Source: Streptosporangiales bacterium
Lineage (GTDB): Bacteria; Actinomycetota; Actinomycetes; Streptosporangiales; WHST01
Length of the DNA stretch: 64,000 nucleotides
Assembly: GCA_009379825.1 (NCBI GenBank)
Contig: WHTA01000002.1
Coordinates: 62,001-126,000 of the forward strand
Direction of reading: 5' to 3'
Below the pieces are notes generated by a model that was given only the letters and a program-made list of their open reading frames with translations, was not told the origin of the DNA and made no database searches. A program made the translations under genes and the position numbers. Positions 18,855 to 25,335 of this stretch are shown here, in pieces (within the stretch, counting starts at the first letter, position 1; the number at the start of each line of letters is the position of its first letter).

Positions 18855-19742
18855 TCAGTCGGTGGGGCGGGCGCCGGTCTGGACGAGGACGCGGGCGGCG
18901 AGCGCCGCGCCCGCGGCGAGGGCGTCGGTCGGTGGTGAGCCGGCGCGCCAGTGCGGCAGGAAGCCGGCGCAGAACGCGTCGCCGGCGCCGGTCGGGTCGA
19001 CGACCTCGACCTGGTGGGCCGGGCAGTGCACCGGGTTCTCGCCGTTCGCCGTCCACACGGCGCCCGAGCTGCCCTCGGTGACCACGACGTGCGGGAAGTG
19101 CTTGGTCAGCGCTCGGGCGGCGGCGTACGTGTCGTACTCGCCGGAGAGGAAGCTCGCCTCCGCCTTGTTCGCGACCAGCAGCGTGCCGCCGCGGGCCAGG
19201 CCGAGGAACGTGTCGCCGCCGAGCCGTTCGAGCAGCGGCACCGAAGGGGTGTCGAGCGAGACGGTCGAGCCGCGCTCGATGGCGTAGCTCATGGCGGTCA
19301 TGGCGCCGTCGCGGCCGCCCTCGTGGGCCAGCGGGAAGCCGGACAGGTGCAGGTGGGTGTCCTGGTCGAACACGTCGGGCGGGATGTCCTCCGGCCGCAG
19401 TGCGGCGTTCGCGCCCGGGTCGGGGAACTGGCTGCGGTCGCCGCGCTCGCCGACGATGACGACGCAGGTGCCGGTCGGCCGTGCCTGGTCCATCACCACC
19501 CGGGGGTCGATGCCGTAACCGAGCAGCTCCATCTCCCTGGTGCGGCCGACGACGTCCGGGCCGCGCCTGGCCACGTAGACGACGTGTTCGCCCTGGATGC
19601 CCAGCCAGGCGGCGACGTTCGCGCCTGATCCACCGCCGTAGCTGTCCACCCAGGCCGGGGTGTCCATGCCGAGCGTGACAGGTCCCATGACCCTGGCGAC
19701 CACGTCAGTCATGAGATCGCCGACGACGACAAACCTGCTCAT
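18855..19742 (-). CDS. PfkB-family carbohydrate/nucleoside kinase
   Basis: A 295-residue protein. GGGSGANVAAWLG is the N-terminal substrate/lid motif and VVDPTGAGDAFCAGFL is the C-terminal signature with the catalytic Asp of ribokinase-like kinases. It phosphorylates a sugar or nucleoside with ATP; the exact substrate is unclear. ATG 19742 has GGAG 8 bases upstream. It is a single gene, convergent with the helicase over a 103-base gap without recognisable content. Confidence 0.88.
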   Translation of the reverse strand: MSRFVVVGDLMTDVVARVMGPVTLGMDTPAWVDSYGGGSGANVAAWLGIQGEHVVYVARRGPDVVGRTREMELLGYGIDPRVVMDQARPTGTCVVIVGERGDRSQFPDPGANAALRPEDIPPDVFDQDTHLHLSGFPLAHEGGRDGAMTAMSYAIERGSTVSLDTPSVPLLERLGGDTFLGLARGGTLLVANKAEASFLSGEYDTYAAARALTKHFPHVVVTEGSSGAVWTANGENPVHCPAHQVEVVDPTGAGDAFCAGFLPHWRAGSPPTDALAAGAALAARVLVQTGARPTD

Positions 19743-19929: not shown

Positions 19930-22008
19930 TCAGGCGGCGACGGGTTCGGATGCGCCGCGACGGGCGGGCAGCCGGAAGCCGGTGACCTCGCCGTAGATCT
20001 GCTCGAACCGCTGCAGCGAGGCGGTCTGGTCGTGGCCCATGGCGATGACCAGGCTCTCCCGCCCCATCCGGGCCCGCAGCGTGTCGTCGGTGAGGATCGT
20101 GCGGACGTGCTCGCCGAGCTCGGCGTGGTTGCGCGGCCGGTGCAGGAAGCCGTTCCTGCCGTGCTGGCAGAGGTGCGGCAGTGCCATGGCGTCGGCGGCG
20201 ACCACCGGCCGCCCGGTGGCCATCGCCTCCAGCGTGACCAGGCTCTGCAGCTCGGCCGTCCCCGGCATGCAGAACACGTCGGCGGACGAGTAGAGCCCGG
20301 GCAGGTCCTCGTCGGGGACGTAACCGAGGAACCGGACGTACTCCGCGACCCCGCGGTCGCTCGCCCGCGCCTCCAGGTCGTCGCGCAGGTTGCCGATGCC
20401 GGCGACGACCAGCTCCGCGTCGACGTGTTCCCGCACCGCCGGCAGGGCGTCGACGAGGTCGTCGATGTGCTTCTCCGCGTCGAGCCTGCCGACGAACAGG
20501 ATGCGCTTCCTTTCGCCGTTGTGCGTGCCGTCCGGCTGCGCCTTGAACCGGTCGAGGTCGATGCCGCACGACACCGGTTCCACGTGCTTCCCGATGCCGG
20601 ACGCCGTCACCAGTCGCGCGGCCGTCGGCGTCGGTGTGGTGAGGGCGCTCGCCGGAGCGAACACGCTCGCCAGGTCGTGCCACGCCAGCTTCGTGATGAG
20701 CCTGGCGACCGGCTCGGGCAGCGGCAGGTAGGGCAGCAGGTTCTCCGGCATGAAGTGGTTGGTGGCGACCAGCGGCAGGTTCGTGCGACCGGCCAGGCGG
20801 CACAGCGCGCGGCCGATCAGGAAGTGGTTCTGTACGTGGCTGACGTCCGGCTGCACCTCGGTGCAGACCTCGGCCACGTCGCGGCGCACGGTCGCCGGGT
20901 TGGCGACCCGGAACGTGTGGTGGAACGGCGTGCGTACGGACCGCACCCGGTGCACGGTGATGCCGTCCTCGTACTCCACGACGGCGTCGCCGTCCTCGGC
21001 CGGACAGCAGACGTGCACGTCGTGTCCGCGGGCGGCGAGGCCGTGCGCCAGCCGGTAGGTGAAGAACGCGGCGCCGTTCACCTGCGGTGGGTACGTGTCC
21101 GCGCCGATGAGGACGCGGAGCCCGGCCGTCGGCGCCGGCCGGGCGGTGACGGCAGGTACGAGGTGACCGGTGTAGGGGCGGCGAAACCGACGGCAGAGCA
21201 AGACGACCCCCGTAACGATGAGTGGGACGGCGACAGCGGCGACGAGCACGTCGTCCACCCGGGCGGGCTGGCCGAGGAACAGGCTGCCGATGCCGATCGC
21301 AGCGAGCGGGTCGGTGACGGTGATGACCGCGATGGCGAGGCCGAGCCTGCCGGTCTGGAACGCCGACTGCTGCAGCAGCAGCCCGATCCCCGCGACGGCG
21401 AGGGCGGCGAGTGTGATCCAGCTGAACAGGGCGAGCACACCGGCACCGCCGACGGCGTGCATCAGCGGCCGCAGCAACGCCGACGTCACGCCGAACGCGA
21501 TCCCCGTACCGGCTGCGAGCACGAGCGTGCGTACCGGCCCGGACACCCGCCGTACGACGAGCGCGGCCAGGCCGAGCACGCCAACGACGACACCGGCGAG
21601 CGGCACGACATCGGTGAAGCTGAGCTCGGGCACCGCCGCCGTGGCGCGCAACGTGGTCATCAGCAGTGCCAGGCCGGCGGATACCACCACCGCGCTGACG
21701 ACCTCGCCGGCGAGCGGCCGGCGGCGGCGCAGCAGTGCGGCGGCAGGCACCGCGAAGACGACGGTCATCACACCGATCGGCTGCACGAGCGCCAGCGGCG
21801 CGAAAGCAAGTGCCAGCACGTGGAGTCCGGCGCCCGCTGCGTTGGCCACCACACCGGCGAGCCACCTGGGCCGGTGGACGAGCTGCAGCAGCAGCCGGGG
21901 ATGCAGGCCCTGTGGCGTAATGGCCGCCGCTTGCTGATGCTGGAGAGCGGCACCGACGGCGTAACACGCGGCACCCGCGAGCGCCAGGACCATGGCAAGC
22001 ACTGTCAT
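19930..22008 (-). CDS. Fusion of a DMT-type permease with a GT4 glycosyltransferase
   Basis: A 692-residue protein. Residues 1 to about 275 form nine or ten membrane helices with internal duplication (QPIGVMTVVFAVPAAALL ... VTDPLAAIGIGSLFLGQPAR), as in drug/metabolite transporters (EamA/NIPA-like). After a short linker, residues from about 295 onward are a GT-B glycosyltransferase: GADTYPPQVNGAAFFTYRLA, HVQNHFLIGRAL, ILFVGRLDAEKHIDDLVDAL, GYVPDEDLPGLYSSADVF and the E-x7-E-like LQSLVTLEAMATGRPVVA, as in GT4 phosphatidylinositol mannosyltransferase-like enzymes. The reading frame is continuous with no sign of a frameshift. It may couple lipid or sugar flipping to glycosylation at the inner face; this is inference. 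Confidence 0.88.
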   Translation of the reverse strand: MTVLAMVLALAGAACYAVGAALQHQQAAAITPQGLHPRLLLQLVHRPRWLAGVVANAAGAGLHVLALAFAPLALVQPIGVMTVVFAVPAAALLRRRRPLAGEVVSAVVVSAGLALLMTTLRATAAVPELSFTDVVPLAGVVVGVLGLAALVVRRVSGPVRTLVLAAGTGIAFGVTSALLRPLMHAVGGAGVLALFSWITLAALAVAGIGLLLQQSAFQTGRLGLAIAVITVTDPLAAIGIGSLFLGQPARVDDVLVAAVAVPLIVTGVVLLCRRFRRPYTGHLVPAVTARPAPTAGLRVLIGADTYPPQVNGAAFFTYRLAHGLAARGHDVHVCCPAEDGDAVVEYEDGITVHRVRSVRTPFHHTFRVANPATVRRDVAEVCTEVQPDVSHVQNHFLIGRALCRLAGRTNLPLVATNHFMPENLLPYLPLPEPVARLITKLAWHDLASVFAPASALTTPTPTAARLVTASGIGKHVEPVSCGIDLDRFKAQPDGTHNGERKRILFVGRLDAEKHIDDLVDALPAVREHVDAELVVAGIGNLRDDLEARASDRGVAEYVRFLGYVPDEDLPGLYSSADVFCMPGTAELQSLVTLEAMATGRPVVAADAMALPHLCQHGRNGFLHRPRNHAELGEHVRTILTDDTLRARMGRESLVIAMGHDQTASLQRFEQIYGEVTGFRLPARRGASEPVAA

Positions 22009-22114: not shown

Positions 22115-22207
22115 TCCCGTAGGTGGCTTACCTGATGTCCGCCTCCATGCTGGCCGCCTAAGGTGAAGCACGAGGTGACGTGGACACGTCGAGGAGAAGA
22201 CCAGGAA

Positions 22208-23497
22208 ATGACGGCATCCGAGCCGCCTGTCGAGGACGGCGCGCGGTCTGGTCAGGCGGAGCCGGGCCGGCTGCCGCCGTGGTTGCGCGCACCGTTGACG
22301 TGGACGCCGTGGAAGTACACGATCCACGTGCTCCTCGGGCTCATCCTCGGCGTGCTGTACTTCGCGCTCGTCCCGCCGTTCACCGCGCTGGCGTTGGTCA
22401 CGACGCCGTTCCTCTTCCTCGGTACGCCGTTGCTGTGGCTGAGCATGGGGTTGGCGCGCGCGTTCGCGAACCTGGACCGGGCGCGGTTGCGCGGTTTCGC
22501 CGGCGTGGACGTACCGCCGAGCCCGCTCGAGGGCAGGACGGGTGTCGTGCGTTCGCTGTCCACGCTGCTGCGGTCGCGGGACAGGTGGCGCGAGATCGGG
22601 TACTGCCTCGCACGCCTGCCGGTGAGCGCCGTGCAGGCCGGCCTGGTGGGCGGTAGCTGGGGCTTCGGCATCACCCTGCTCACCGGTGCGCCCTTCGTGC
22701 TGTTCGACTCCGGCAGCTGGGCCGTCGCGCAGACGTCGCTGATGCTCGCCGGCGGCGTCGCCCTGCTCGTCACCGCGCCCTGGCTCGCGCGTGCGGCCAT
22801 CATCGTCGACGCCGTCGTCGTACGCAGCCTGCTCGGCCCGAGCGAGAAGGAGCGGCTCACCGAAGAGGTCAGCACCCTACGGACCAGCCGCGCCGGGGTG
22901 GTCGCCGCGGCGGACGCGGAGCGGCGCAGGATCGAGCGCGACCTGCACGACGGCGCGCAGCAGCGGTTGGTCGCGTTGGCGATGGACCTCGGCGTAGCGC
23001 GGGCGCGTTACGCCGACGACCCCGACGAGGTGCGTGTGCTGATCGTCAAGGCGCACGAGGAGTCCAAGGCCGCGTTGGCGGACCTGCGCGAGCTGGTGCG
23101 CGGCATCCACCCTGCAGTGCTGACCGACCGCGGCCTGGACGCGGCACTGTCTGCGCTCGCCGCGCGTTGTGCGGTGCCCGTAGCGGTCGACGTCGACGTG
23201 GCGGAACGGGCGGACCTGACCGTCGAGGCGGCTGCCTACTTCGTGGTCGCCGAGGCGCTGACGAACGTGTCGCGGCATTCTGGTGCCACGCAGGCGAAAA
23301 TCGCCGTCGTCAGGATCGACGACCGGCTGCGCGTGTCGATCGAGGACGACGGGCGCGGTGGCGCGACGATGGCAGCGGGAACCGGCCTGGCCGGTCTGGA
23401 GCGGAGGGTGGCGGCGTTGGACGGTGTCTTCGAGGTGCACAGTCCGTACGGCGGTCCCACCACGATCATCGCGGAGCTGCCATGCGCGTCGTACTAG
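22208..23497 (+). CDS. NarL-type sensor histidine kinase
   Basis: A 429-residue protein from ATG 22208 (GAGGAGAAG upstream). The N-terminal half has about five membrane segments with no large extracellular domain. The HisKA_3 dimerisation domain has the phospho-acceptor in RRIERDLHDGAQQRLVALAM, and the ATPase domain has AEALTNVSRHSGATQ (N box) and SIEDDGRGG, GTGLAGLERRVAALDG (G boxes). It phosphorylates the response regulator encoded immediately downstream, which overlaps it by 16 bases. The signal is unknown; a membrane or cell-envelope cue is plausible given its topology. Confidence 0.92.
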   Translation: MTASEPPVEDGARSGQAEPGRLPPWLRAPLTWTPWKYTIHVLLGLILGVLYFALVPPFTALALVTTPFLFLGTPLLWLSMGLARAFANLDRARLRGFAGVDVPPSPLEGRTGVVRSLSTLLRSRDRWREIGYCLARLPVSAVQAGLVGGSWGFGITLLTGAPFVLFDSGSWAVAQTSLMLAGGVALLVTAPWLARAAIIVDAVVVRSLLGPSEKERLTEEVSTLRTSRAGVVAAADAERRRIERDLHDGAQQRLVALAMDLGVARARYADDPDEVRVLIVKAHEESKAALADLRELVRGIHPAVLTDRGLDAALSALAARCAVPVAVDVDVAERADLTVEAAAYFVVAEALTNVSRHSGATQAKIAVVRIDDRLRVSIEDDGRGGATMAAGTGLAGLERRVAALDGVFEVHSPYGGPTTIIAELPCASY

Positions 23498-24126
23498 CCG
23501 AAGACTCCGTGCTGCTGCGCGAGGGCCTGGTGCGGCTGCTGGAAACCGCCGGCTACGACGTGACGGCGGTGGCGGACGCCGACGAGCTGTTGCGCGCGGT
23601 CGAGGCCGAGCCACCGCATGCCGTGGTGGCGGACGTGCGGATGCCGCCTACGCACACCGACGAGGGGCTGCGGGCGGCACTGGTGATCAGGAAGAACCAT
23701 CCGGACGTCGCCGTACTCGTGCTGTCGCAGTACGTCGAGGAACGTTATGCGGTGGACCTGATCGCGGGGGAGTCGCGCGGGGTCGGCTACCTGCTGAAGG
23801 ACCGGGTCGCCGACGTGGACGAGTTCCTCGCCGCGCTGCGCCGGGTCATCGACGGCGGCACGGCGCTCGACGCGGAGGTGGTCGGGCAGCTGCTGGTCAG
23901 GAGCCGGCGCAGGGACCCGCTCGCCGAGCTGTCGAACCGCGAGCGGGAGGTGCTCGCGCTGATGGCGGAAGGCCGCTCGAACACCGGCATCGCCGAGCAG
24001 CTGGTACTCAGCCACGGTGCGGTCGAGAAGCACGTGAGTGGCATCTTCACCAAGCTGGGCATGCCACCGGGCAGCCAGCACGATCACCGAAGGGTATTGG
24101 CCGTATTACGGTTCCTCGACTCGTGA
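23482..24126 (+). CDS. NarL/LuxR-type response regulator
   Basis: A 214-residue protein starting at ATG 23482 inside the end of the kinase gene. The receiver domain (MRVVLAEDSVLLREGLVRLL) has the acidic pair E7/D8, the phospho-acceptor Asp in VVADVRMPP, and the conserved Lys in GYLLKDRVAD. The C-terminal HTH reads LSNREREVLALMAEGRSNTG, then IAEQLVLSHGAVEKHVSGIF. Partner of the upstream histidine kinase; its targets are unknown and may include its own operon. Confidence 0.93.
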   Translation: MRVVLAEDSVLLREGLVRLLETAGYDVTAVADADELLRAVEAEPPHAVVADVRMPPTHTDEGLRAALVIRKNHPDVAVLVLSQYVEERYAVDLIAGESRGVGYLLKDRVADVDEFLAALRRVIDGGTALDAEVVGQLLVRSRRRDPLAELSNREREVLALMAEGRSNTGIAEQLVLSHGAVEKHVSGIFTKLGMPPGSQHDHRRVLAVLRFLDS

Positions 24127-24160
24127 CCACGGCCGTCCGCCCAATGCCAACATTGGCTCC

Positions 24161-24690
24161 ATGATTGGAACCAGCAAGGATCTGGAAGCCGAGATCCGCA
24201 AGCGGGACGTGTATCCGGACTTCGTGGTCGAACAGATCCAGGACATGGTCGCCGGGGAGTCGATGCGCGACTGGTTCTGTTGGCACCGGGCCCGGCCGGG
24301 CGCAGGCGGCTCGACCGCGCAGGTCCTGATCTTCGCGCTCACCGAGTCGAGGTTCCTGTACCTGAACGCCGACAACACCCCGCACCGCGGCCAGTCGTGC
24401 TGGTCCACCGGTGTCGCCGGCGTGCCGTTGCGTAACGTCACGTCCGTCGTCAGCCGGTCGCGCCGCTACCCGGCGAACGGGGACGGCAAGCCGGACGTGC
24501 CGGACGTCGCGTACCTGCTGGTGAGCTGGAACAGCGACAAGAAGCTCAACGCGACGCCCGACGACGGCAGGTTCTCCGGCAGCCTACGTCGAGCGACGCG
24601 TTGATCCGCGTGGACACCGAGACCGAGGGCGCGGACGGCGTGCGGCGGCTGCGCGCGTTCGGCTCCGGACTGACGCGGGCGGTCGCCCGC
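24161..24690 (+). pseudogene. Divergent DUF5998-like gene, frameshifted
   Basis: From ATG 24161 the frame gives MIGTSKDLEAEIRKRDVYPD ... PLRNVTSVVSRS and closes at 24604 after 147 residues. The neighbouring -1 frame between about 24583 and 24690 reads PTSSDALIRVDTETEGADGV then RRLRAFGSGLTRAVAR, which aligns with the end of the intact DUF5998 gene just downstream (TSDDLTLRVSGTAEGDDAVQ). So the C-terminal part is present but out of frame, with the break at about 24565-24585. If repaired, no stop separates it from the next gene. It is a divergent tandem copy, damaged or misread. Confidence 0.7.
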
Positions 24691-24759
24691 GTTCAGCTGA
24701 CCCGCCGTCCGGCGTTGGTTGCGTCCCTGGCCGGAACGGCGAGGTGCCAGGATGGGGGG

Positions 24760-25335
24760 ATGACGACTAGCACGCTGGATGATCTGCGTACCGAGGTGGA
24801 GCGCTGCGGCTACTTTCCCGAGCTGGTGGTGCACGGGGTCGAGACGGCGCTGGGTAGTGACCCGGCGACGGACTGGATCGTCCACCACGAGGCGACGTTC
24901 GACGTCGAGATGGAGGTACGGCGCCACGTCTCCGTGCTGGTGCTGACCGGTACCCGGCTGCTCGTCCTGCACACCGACGACCACCCGCCGGTCGACGGCG
25001 CCTCGCAGCCGCACGCGACGACGAGCGTCGAAGCGGTGCCGCTGCGCCAGATCCAGTCGGTGCTGTTGAGCTCGGTGATCCCGGAGCCGGCGAACTACGC
25101 GGCCGGCCGGGCGCCTGCCGAGGCCACGCTCACCGTGGGGTGGGGGATCGTCGGCCGGGTCGACCTCGAGCCGGCCAGCTGCGCCGACGAGAACTGCGAG
25201 GCCGACCACGGCTACACCGGGCAGCTCACCTCCGACGACCTCACCCTCCGGGTGAGCGGCACGGCGGAAGGCGACGACGCGGTGCAGCGGTTGGTGGACT
25301 TCGCCGCCGCGCTGTCCGCGGCCACCAGCCGGTGA
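24760..25335 (+). CDS. DUF5998 family protein
   Basis: A 191-residue protein from ATG 24760 after a G-rich ribosome-binding site. Typical family features are TLDDLRTEVERCGYFPELVV at the start, HHEATFDVEMEVRRHVSVLV, VEAVPLRQIQSVLLSSVI, and a cysteine pair in CADENCEADHGYTGQL. It is soluble and its function is unknown. In actinobacteria it is commonly found upstream of a nucleotide-pyrophosphatase-like gene, as here (82 bases downstream). It is the intact copy of a tandem pair. Confidence 0.85.
   Translation: MTTSTLDDLRTEVERCGYFPELVVHGVETALGSDPATDWIVHHEATFDVEMEVRRHVSVLVLTGTRLLVLHTDDHPPVDGASQPHATTSVEAVPLRQIQSVLLSSVIPEPANYAAGRAPAEATLTVGWGIVGRVDLEPASCADENCEADHGYTGQLTSDDLTLRVSGTAEGDDAVQRLVDFAAALSAATSR

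Follow-up and report, generated by a model that had tools for sequence, protein, structure and literature searches.

In the stretch of DNA analysed here (64,000 nucleotides, hereafter the window), one gene is predicted to encode a transporter-like membrane domain followed by a glycosyltransferase. An initial annotation read this arrangement as coupling the movement of a substrate across the membrane to glycosyl transfer, for example in lipid mannosylation. This raises the question of whether the fusion is real and, if so, what the membrane partner does for the enzyme.

The fusion gene and its neighbours

An ORF check of the window showed that the 692-residue frame is uninterrupted and free of stop codons from 22008 to 19930 on the minus strand. 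The coordinates and length in the initial annotation were exact, and it was silent on the strand. Its central observation, a continuous DMT and GT4 frame without a frameshift, is likewise confirmed: the same fusion is open in two further genomes of the family, G001 (72% identity) and G002 (69%), and therefore in 3/3 genomes of this family. The linkers of these relatives have diverged in sequence and kept the reading frame. Because all three family genomes carry the same fusion, it is not an assembly error, and together with the open linkers this rules out an assembly or frameshift artefact. An AlphaFold2 model of the whole protein, made with 66 alignment rows, had a mean pLDDT of 91.3 and a pTM of 0.78. 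Thus, the window contains a DMT-GT4 fusion in one frame. ARAGORN also placed a tRNA-Ala at 20867-20955 on the plus strand, antisense to the glycosyltransferase domain, which we took as false; it had no Rfam support.

The gene lies between a sugar kinase gene and a divergent two-component system (Table 1). In G001 the order is a topoisomerase subunit, a rhomboid protein, a helicase (these three named by eye), PfkB, fusion, histidine kinase and response regulator. The kinase side is also conserved in G002, where the contig stops before the position of PfkB. The PfkB kinase was considered as a partner of the module and set aside, its adjacency being known from the window and G001 alone (78% identity). 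Further along, at 24038-25335 of the window, two adjoining genes match one G001 frame and are probably tandem paralogues.

Table 1. Positions of the features discussed. Plain numbers are positions in the window; numbers after an L handle are positions in that related locus.
Feature	Position	Strand	Basis or remark
Fusion gene, 692 codons plus stop	19930..22008	-	DMT_1 membrane domain, then GT4 glycosyltransferase
DMT_1 membrane domain, residues 1-275	21184..22008	-	NF038012, domain model, loop Lys/Arg bias
Linker, residues 276-297	21118..21183	-	poorly conserved, part disordered; identity 18-40% among genus members
GT4 (GT-B) glycosyltransferase domain, residues 298-676	19981..21117	-	PF13439, PF00534, PF13692; Foldseek
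Motif TNHFMPENL, residues 416-424	20737..20763	-	invariant across 19 aligned fused proteins
RLDAEK, residues R508-K513	20470..20487	-	R508 and K513 invariant in 19/19 fused proteins
EX7E motif ELQSLVTLE, residues 586-594	20227..20253	-	E586 and E594 invariant in 19/19 fused proteins
PfkB-family sugar kinase, downstream neighbour	18855..19742	-	PF00294; order kept in G001, 78% identity
Sensor histidine kinase, upstream divergent neighbour	22163..23497	+	PF13796, PF07730, PF02518; kept in G001 and G002
LuxR-type response regulator, kinase partner	23494..24126	+	type by eye; G001 and G002, 81-87% identity
VTT/DedA genes before GT4	L172:7570-8987		
VTT/DedA genes before GT4	L091:1542-3043		
VTT/DedA genes before GT4	L092:2673-3218		
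VTT/DedA genes before GT4	L094:1155-1730		
Double-GT4 region	L169:9806-12192		
Double-GT4 region	L170:9362-11772		
Double-GT4 region	L171:9095-11529		

The membrane domain

Residues 5-273 match the NCBIfam profile NF038012 (DMT_1) with 70.8 bits against a cut-off of 50, which places the domain in that family. No match to Pfam EamA (PF00892) was found in the fusion protein at E <= 0.1; the best Pfam match of the membrane half is NIPA (PF05653), whose 21.9 bits lie below its cut-off of 26.2. The label DMT/EamA-like given at the outset thus stands for DMT and not for EamA. Judged by these profiles, the membrane half appears better described as a member of the DMT superfamily of the NIPA-like, nine-helix form, for which EamA-like is a loose term.

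Nine transmembrane helices are predicted, with the N-terminus outside and the C-terminus in the cytosol. Across 51 aligned domains, the loops on the side of the C-terminus hold on average 4.25, 2.63, 1.67, 0.33 and 3.51 Lys and Arg residues, and those on the opposite side 0.00, 0.47, 0.12 and 0.41. By the positive-inside rule this bias puts the N-terminus outside and the glycosyltransferase in the cytosol, in agreement with the cytoplasmic placement first proposed.

Modelled alone with AlphaFold2, the DMT domain had a pLDDT of 93.3 and a pTM of 0.90. The top VIA-align rows for this model were Gdx-Clo, EmrE, SLC35B1, 5i20 and CMP-sialic acid transporters, with Z scores of 8.2-10.5. Gdx-Clo ranked highest (Z 10.5, rmsd 2.4 over 103 residues), SLC35B1 and 5i20 scored 8.6 and 8.4, and even the highest of these values is below the level regarded as safe for helical bundles in the method's own note. 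The SMR structures align with the N-terminal half of the model. A Foldseek search with the same model returned nothing at E <= 0.001, its best matches being ABC and MFS chains (best E 0.034). PHROGs profiles added nothing.

The conserved buried residues of the domain are Q23, W49, Q76, P77, D233 and P234. Among three family members dN/dS ranged over 0.25-0.32 in the DMT part, 0.32-0.34 in the glycosyltransferase part and 0.50-0.89 in the linker; comparison of the first two shows that the membrane part is constrained as tightly as the enzyme.

The glycosyltransferase domain

The initial annotation described the C-terminal half as a complete GT4 enzyme, and the profiles bear this out. PF13439 matches residues 310-487 with 87.6 bits and PF00534 residues 489-651 with 126.9 bits, so that the profiles of both Rossmann domains lie far over their cut-offs, which identifies the domain as GT4. 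In an alignment of 19 fused proteins H418, like the other four residues R508, K513, E586 and E594 (Table 1), is invariant. We take H418 to be the position of the conserved active-site histidine of GT4 enzymes, EX7E to be their catalytic motif, and R508 and K513 to be their donor-phosphate-binding pair. In the whole-protein model residues 277-288 of the linker form the sole longer stretch with a pLDDT below 50.

Foldseek matched the glycosyltransferase half to the structures of MshA, BshA, PimA and PimB' at 18-26% identity. The matches also include the GT4 enzyme PglA (8dqd), whose PDB title names a C55-PP-sugar acceptor. The domain scored above the cut-off of no curated NCBIfam equivalog, with 85.2 bits against 462.5 for MshA and 103.2 against 273.7 for BshA.

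Related loci in other genomes

We assembled 123 related loci from the best 80 of a genome scan and from additions by genome searches, and classified them with profiles built from the loci themselves. Two of them, L112 and L062, have identical glycosyltransferases, leaving 122 distinct loci; other GT4 genes of the window's genome (L002-L008) were left out. Some labels were corrected by hand: three genes labelled 'codir_down' proved to be upstream genes nested in over-long frames, L043 was relabelled as an interrupted fusion, and DMT in L057 proved to be a 23-bit fragment only.

Forty-seven of the 123 loci are fused, contradicting the idea, entertained at the outset, that the fusion might be absent from all relatives. 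In 57 others an intact DMT gene lies directly upstream of the GT4 gene on the same strand, and in 6 the DMT gene is convergent; DMT is therefore a separate gene in 63/123 loci. One fusion (L043) is interrupted by an insertion and 12 loci are without an intact DMT. The scan query included the DMT part, which inflates the share of loci with DMT among those found by the scan, and loci found with the glycosyltransferase alone give a fairer estimate: a DMT partner was present in 22 of 23 (L108-L130; the exception begins at a contig end) and, in a second set, in 9 of 10 (L177-L186).

The fused form occurs chiefly in Pseudonocardiaceae and Glycomyces and also in Rhodococcus rhodnii, Actinocatenispora, Actinacidiphila and the window's family. 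The adjacent form is that of Micrococcaceae, Microbacteriaceae, Brevibacterium, Saccharopolyspora and genomes of family f78, whereas Nocardiopsis and Murinocardiopsis have the convergent one. In Kibdelosporangium philippinense (L043:3901-7728) an insertion of about 1.5 kb apparently splits the fusion within the membrane domain. A typical Micrococcaceae module was seen on an Acidobacteria-labelled contig (L080, JABBNV010000028.1), which is probably misplaced. A plasmid collection yielded 4 records, none reaching 80% coverage; one record of the collection, NZ_LT559118.1, is chromosome-like at 11.85 Mb.

We found no description of a DMT-GT4 fusion in the titles, abstract openings and selected passages of the literature covered, which included few subscription journals. 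The parts covered of three papers, PMC3901891 (on the glycolipid synthase CpoA of S. pneumoniae), PMC6237770 and PMC3196553, held no evidence of the pair.

Evolution and phylogenetic profile

Loci more than 85% alike were thinned, leaving 69 rows for the glycosyltransferase tree. On this tree the fused label takes 4 changes, at least 2 of them forced by strong branches. The AU test ran on 64 rows, after further removal of the outgroup L008 and of the long rows L102, L094, L095 and L089. It rejected a single clade of all 24 fused rows (p-AU 0.00015); with the window's family set aside, a single clade of the remaining 21 fused rows was not rejected (p 0.209). From the first result it follows that fusion, or splitting, occurred at least twice. 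The partnership of DMT and GT4 is old.

In a tree of 58 DMT domains linked to a glycosyltransferase and 39 unlinked DMT_1 proteins, the two groups separated with 2 changes, and the linked DMTs form a subfamily of their own. The unlinked genes often occur as tandem pairs (L134, L138, L139, L153, L154, L159 and L161), perhaps encoding two-subunit transporters.

All 80 genomes of family f2 (32 genera) matched the full-protein query at E <= 1e-50. This family is Micrococcaceae-like, since its locus L096 shares 89% identity with a locus of a named member of the Micrococcaceae. In family f9, which is Microbacteriaceae-like (74% identity to Agreia), the glycosyltransferase of L097 was matched in 58 of 60 genomes, taken one per genus and including one genome of 0.9 Mb. 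Matches were found in 103/150 genomes of the window's order, in 14 of 396 in a sample of the phylum at a strict threshold, and in 1 of 81 genomes of f4, an arabinan-making family (PF04602 in 12/13 genomes).

Replacement of the membrane partner and other neighbours

Families f19 and f28 contribute four loci without DMT, and in all four a gene of the VTT type (PF09335, DedA family) lies directly before GT4, in the place of DMT. VTT was identified by profile in L172 (the same locus as L093), L091 and L094 and by blastp in L092/L173, and a blastp search of every frame of each fetched locus confined VTT relatives to these four. Some of these genes overlap one another by ATGA. DedA proteins are proposed translocases of undecaprenyl phosphate (C55-P), according to passages of PMC9876793. 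That a family of lipid translocases can replace DMT is the strongest sign that DMT moves a lipid.

Neither DMT nor a detected VTT accompanies the glycosyltransferase in L087, L099-L103 and L185. In three of these, from f9 genomes (L099-L101, seen in L169-L171), a second, different GT4 gene overlaps or adjoins the first, with no DMT nearby. The paired enzymes may add two sugars successively.

Seventeen Micrococcaceae-type loci (counting L096) have a CDP-alcohol phosphatidyltransferase gene just upstream of DMT; it touches or overlaps the start of DMT in 16 and lies 37 bases away in one. The product is ClsA/PgsA-like, its nearest curated family being cardiolipin synthase ClsA (134.7 bits, cut-off 240). 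A DUF998 (PF06197) membrane gene touches or overlaps the start of the module in the majority of loci from Pseudonocardiaceae; in many f78 loci (many of L107-L130) it comes after the glycosyltransferase. Its profile matched 62 frames over all loci. DUF998 regularly accompanies the pair as a third partner, yet it does not adjoin the window gene; a title listing of the literature gave no function for it.

Regulatory genes were also seen. A response regulator and a histidine kinase often lie beside the module in varying positions (L016, L018, L022, L036, L043, L069 and the Nocardiopsis loci). These pairs are of the OmpR type where scanned; the window has a divergent kinase with HisKA_3 instead. 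In Amycolatopsis saalfeldensis, a gene downstream of the fusion (L069:8082-9143) weakly resembles a diglucosyl diacylglycerol synthase (89.9 bits; cut-off 500).

The candidate lipid

Passages of the review PMC4365757 name seven genera as sources of dimannosyl glycerides: Micrococcus, Curtobacterium, Saccharopolyspora, Rothia, Nocardiopsis, Arthrobacter and Sinomonas. Four of them occur by name among our loci, namely Arthrobacter, Sinomonas (including Sinomonas atrocyanea), Saccharopolyspora and Nocardiopsis, a match that was noticed post hoc. The other three, Micrococcus, Curtobacterium and Rothia, are presumably members of f2- and f9-type families. The glycosyltransferase is also present in genera for which the same passages report no dimannosyl glyceride, and Arthrobacter makes a galactosyl diglyceride as well (PMC4365757). 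In excerpts of PMC3836763, the lipomannan of M. luteus and Stomatococcus sits on a glycosylated diacylglycerol anchor, and the lipoglycan anchors of Pseudonocardineae are inositol-based. Many Pseudonocardineae carry the fusion, which runs counter to the fit with a mannosyl-glyceride anchor.

MptB, an enzyme of the lipomannan chain, is absent from the window's own genome, and a lipomannan role in this organism is therefore unlikely; a glycolipid free of polymer would still fit. The lipid mannosylation first suggested thus remains plausible from the genera among the DMT-GT4 loci, with the lack of MptB in the window's genome counting against it. The likeliest product would be a mannosyl glyceride, mono- or dimannosyl, of which we infer both the sugar and the acceptor.

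Proposed function and alternatives

With somewhat better than even confidence, we read DMT-GT4 as a lipid glycosyltransferase-flippase pair, in which the lipid acceptor, the mannose donor, the direction of transport and the coupling are all putative. We favour this reading because VTT/DedA can take the place of DMT and because the pair is nearly universal in two families. At the cytoplasmic face, the C-terminal GT4 domain would glycosylate a membrane lipid with a nucleotide sugar as donor. The N-terminal DMT domain would receive the sugar-lipid product and bring its head group across to the outer leaflet. Producer and flippase would be held together by fusion, by operon pairing or by gene neighbourhood. 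The likeliest products would be mono- or dimannosyl glycerides, which in Micrococcus double as the lipid anchor of lipomannan. The initial interpretation is supported in part. Its coupling of transport to glycosyl transfer is supported, as the two findings named as telling against it, a fusion without relatives and a membrane part serving as a mere anchor, both fail; its lipid mannosylation is plausible and unproven.

More tentatively, and as a possibility that we hold at well under even confidence, GT4 could be the enzyme that makes (di)mannosyl glycerides in actinobacteria and DMT the dedicated flippase of these lipids. DMT_1 and VTT/DedA would then be glycolipid translocases that can stand in for each other beside one enzyme, and the fusion would play the part of MprF for actinobacterial sugar lipids. 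A 2011 review, in the part covered, has Ac1PIM4 probably carried by unidentified flippases (PMC3229680). The flippases of actinobacterial mannolipids are missing, and the DMT-GT4 pair supplies a concrete candidate for both a flippase and the glycolipid synthase that it would serve. The candidate gains weight from having been fused at least twice, from its near-universal presence in two families, and from a membrane partner that a lipid-translocase family can replace.

The lipid could instead be polyprenyl phosphate, with GT4 adding sugars to a C55-PP-linked glycan and DMT or VTT flipping the product or returning the C55-P carrier. The DedA/VTT proteins that replace DMT in 4 loci are themselves proposed C55-P translocases (PMC9876793), ArnE/ArnF, of a related SMR fold, flip undecaprenyl-phosphate-aminoarabinose (PMC9574504, in part), and PglA with its C55-PP-sugar acceptor is among the structural matches. 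The CDP-alcohol phosphatidyltransferase neighbours in 17 loci suggest glycerolipids, however, and inspection of the flanks by eye revealed no polymerase, ligase or polyprenyl-phosphate sugar transferase. We regard a polyprenyl acceptor as unlikely.

It is quite improbable that DMT imports or exports a soluble substrate (a sugar, nucleotide, Mg2+ or precursor) used or made by the glycosyltransferase. The weak NIPA match (21.9 bits) is to a magnesium transporter family, SLC35 nucleotide-sugar and ADP transporters are among the VIA-align rows (with Z below the safe level), and the reference list of PMC9574504 includes a choline importer tied to teichoic acid modification. Against this, DMT is swapped for VTT/DedA, a lipid-translocase family. 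Moreover, nucleotide sugars are synthesized in the cytosol and so already share a compartment with the enzyme.

An anchor or scaffold function for the membrane part would explain why a glycosyltransferase acting on membrane lipids is placed at the membrane, and in some loci (L087, L099-L103) the enzyme does stand alone. We rejected it as the main reading and consider it very improbable, because DMT also occurs as its own gene (63/123 loci), where it gives no covalent anchoring, retains buried polar residues within the membrane, and is under purifying selection equal to that on the enzyme. Finally, part of the neighbourhood is common to close relatives only, as chance proximity or an assembly artefact might produce, but recurrent fusion, convergent pairs and operons over many families leave this a negligible chance.

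Comparison with known systems

MprF, the lysyl-phosphatidylglycerol synthase-flippase, resembles the reading of DMT-GT4 as a glycosyltransferase-flippase pair in that one protein modifies a lipid inside and moves it outward, and it has the same order, with the flippase part N-terminal and the synthase part after it (PMC5898192, in part). Passages of the same paper describe archaeal AglD-type proteins, in which a glycosyltransferase is likewise joined to a predicted flippase. MprF differs in combining a UPF0104-type flippase with another transferase domain, where the window protein has DMT_1 and GT4. AglD-type proteins have the reverse order, with a C-terminal flippase that is UPF0104 rather than DMT, and a different glycosyltransferase, in AglD presumably a GT2.

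ArnE/ArnF have an SMR/DMT fold, which the DMT domain may share, and are tied to a sugar-lipid flipping pathway (PMC9574504, from excerpts); they differ in being separate small subunits. PimA, PimB', MshA and BshA resemble the glycosyltransferase half in their GT-B fold and EX7E motif and are its nearest solved structures; they differ in their low identity in the Foldseek rows (18-26%), and the window enzyme falls under the curated cut-offs of MshA and BshA. We know of no GT4 partner of ArnE/ArnF and of no transporter partner of the latter four enzymes. The dimannosyldiacylglycerol and lipomannan anchor pathway of M. luteus fits the distribution of the pair in its lipid and its organisms; the parts of the literature examined tie no DMT-GT4 gene to it. 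The logic of a synthase joined to a flippase is thus already known from MprF and AglD, and the pairing of DMT_1 with GT4 differs from both in the families that it brings together.
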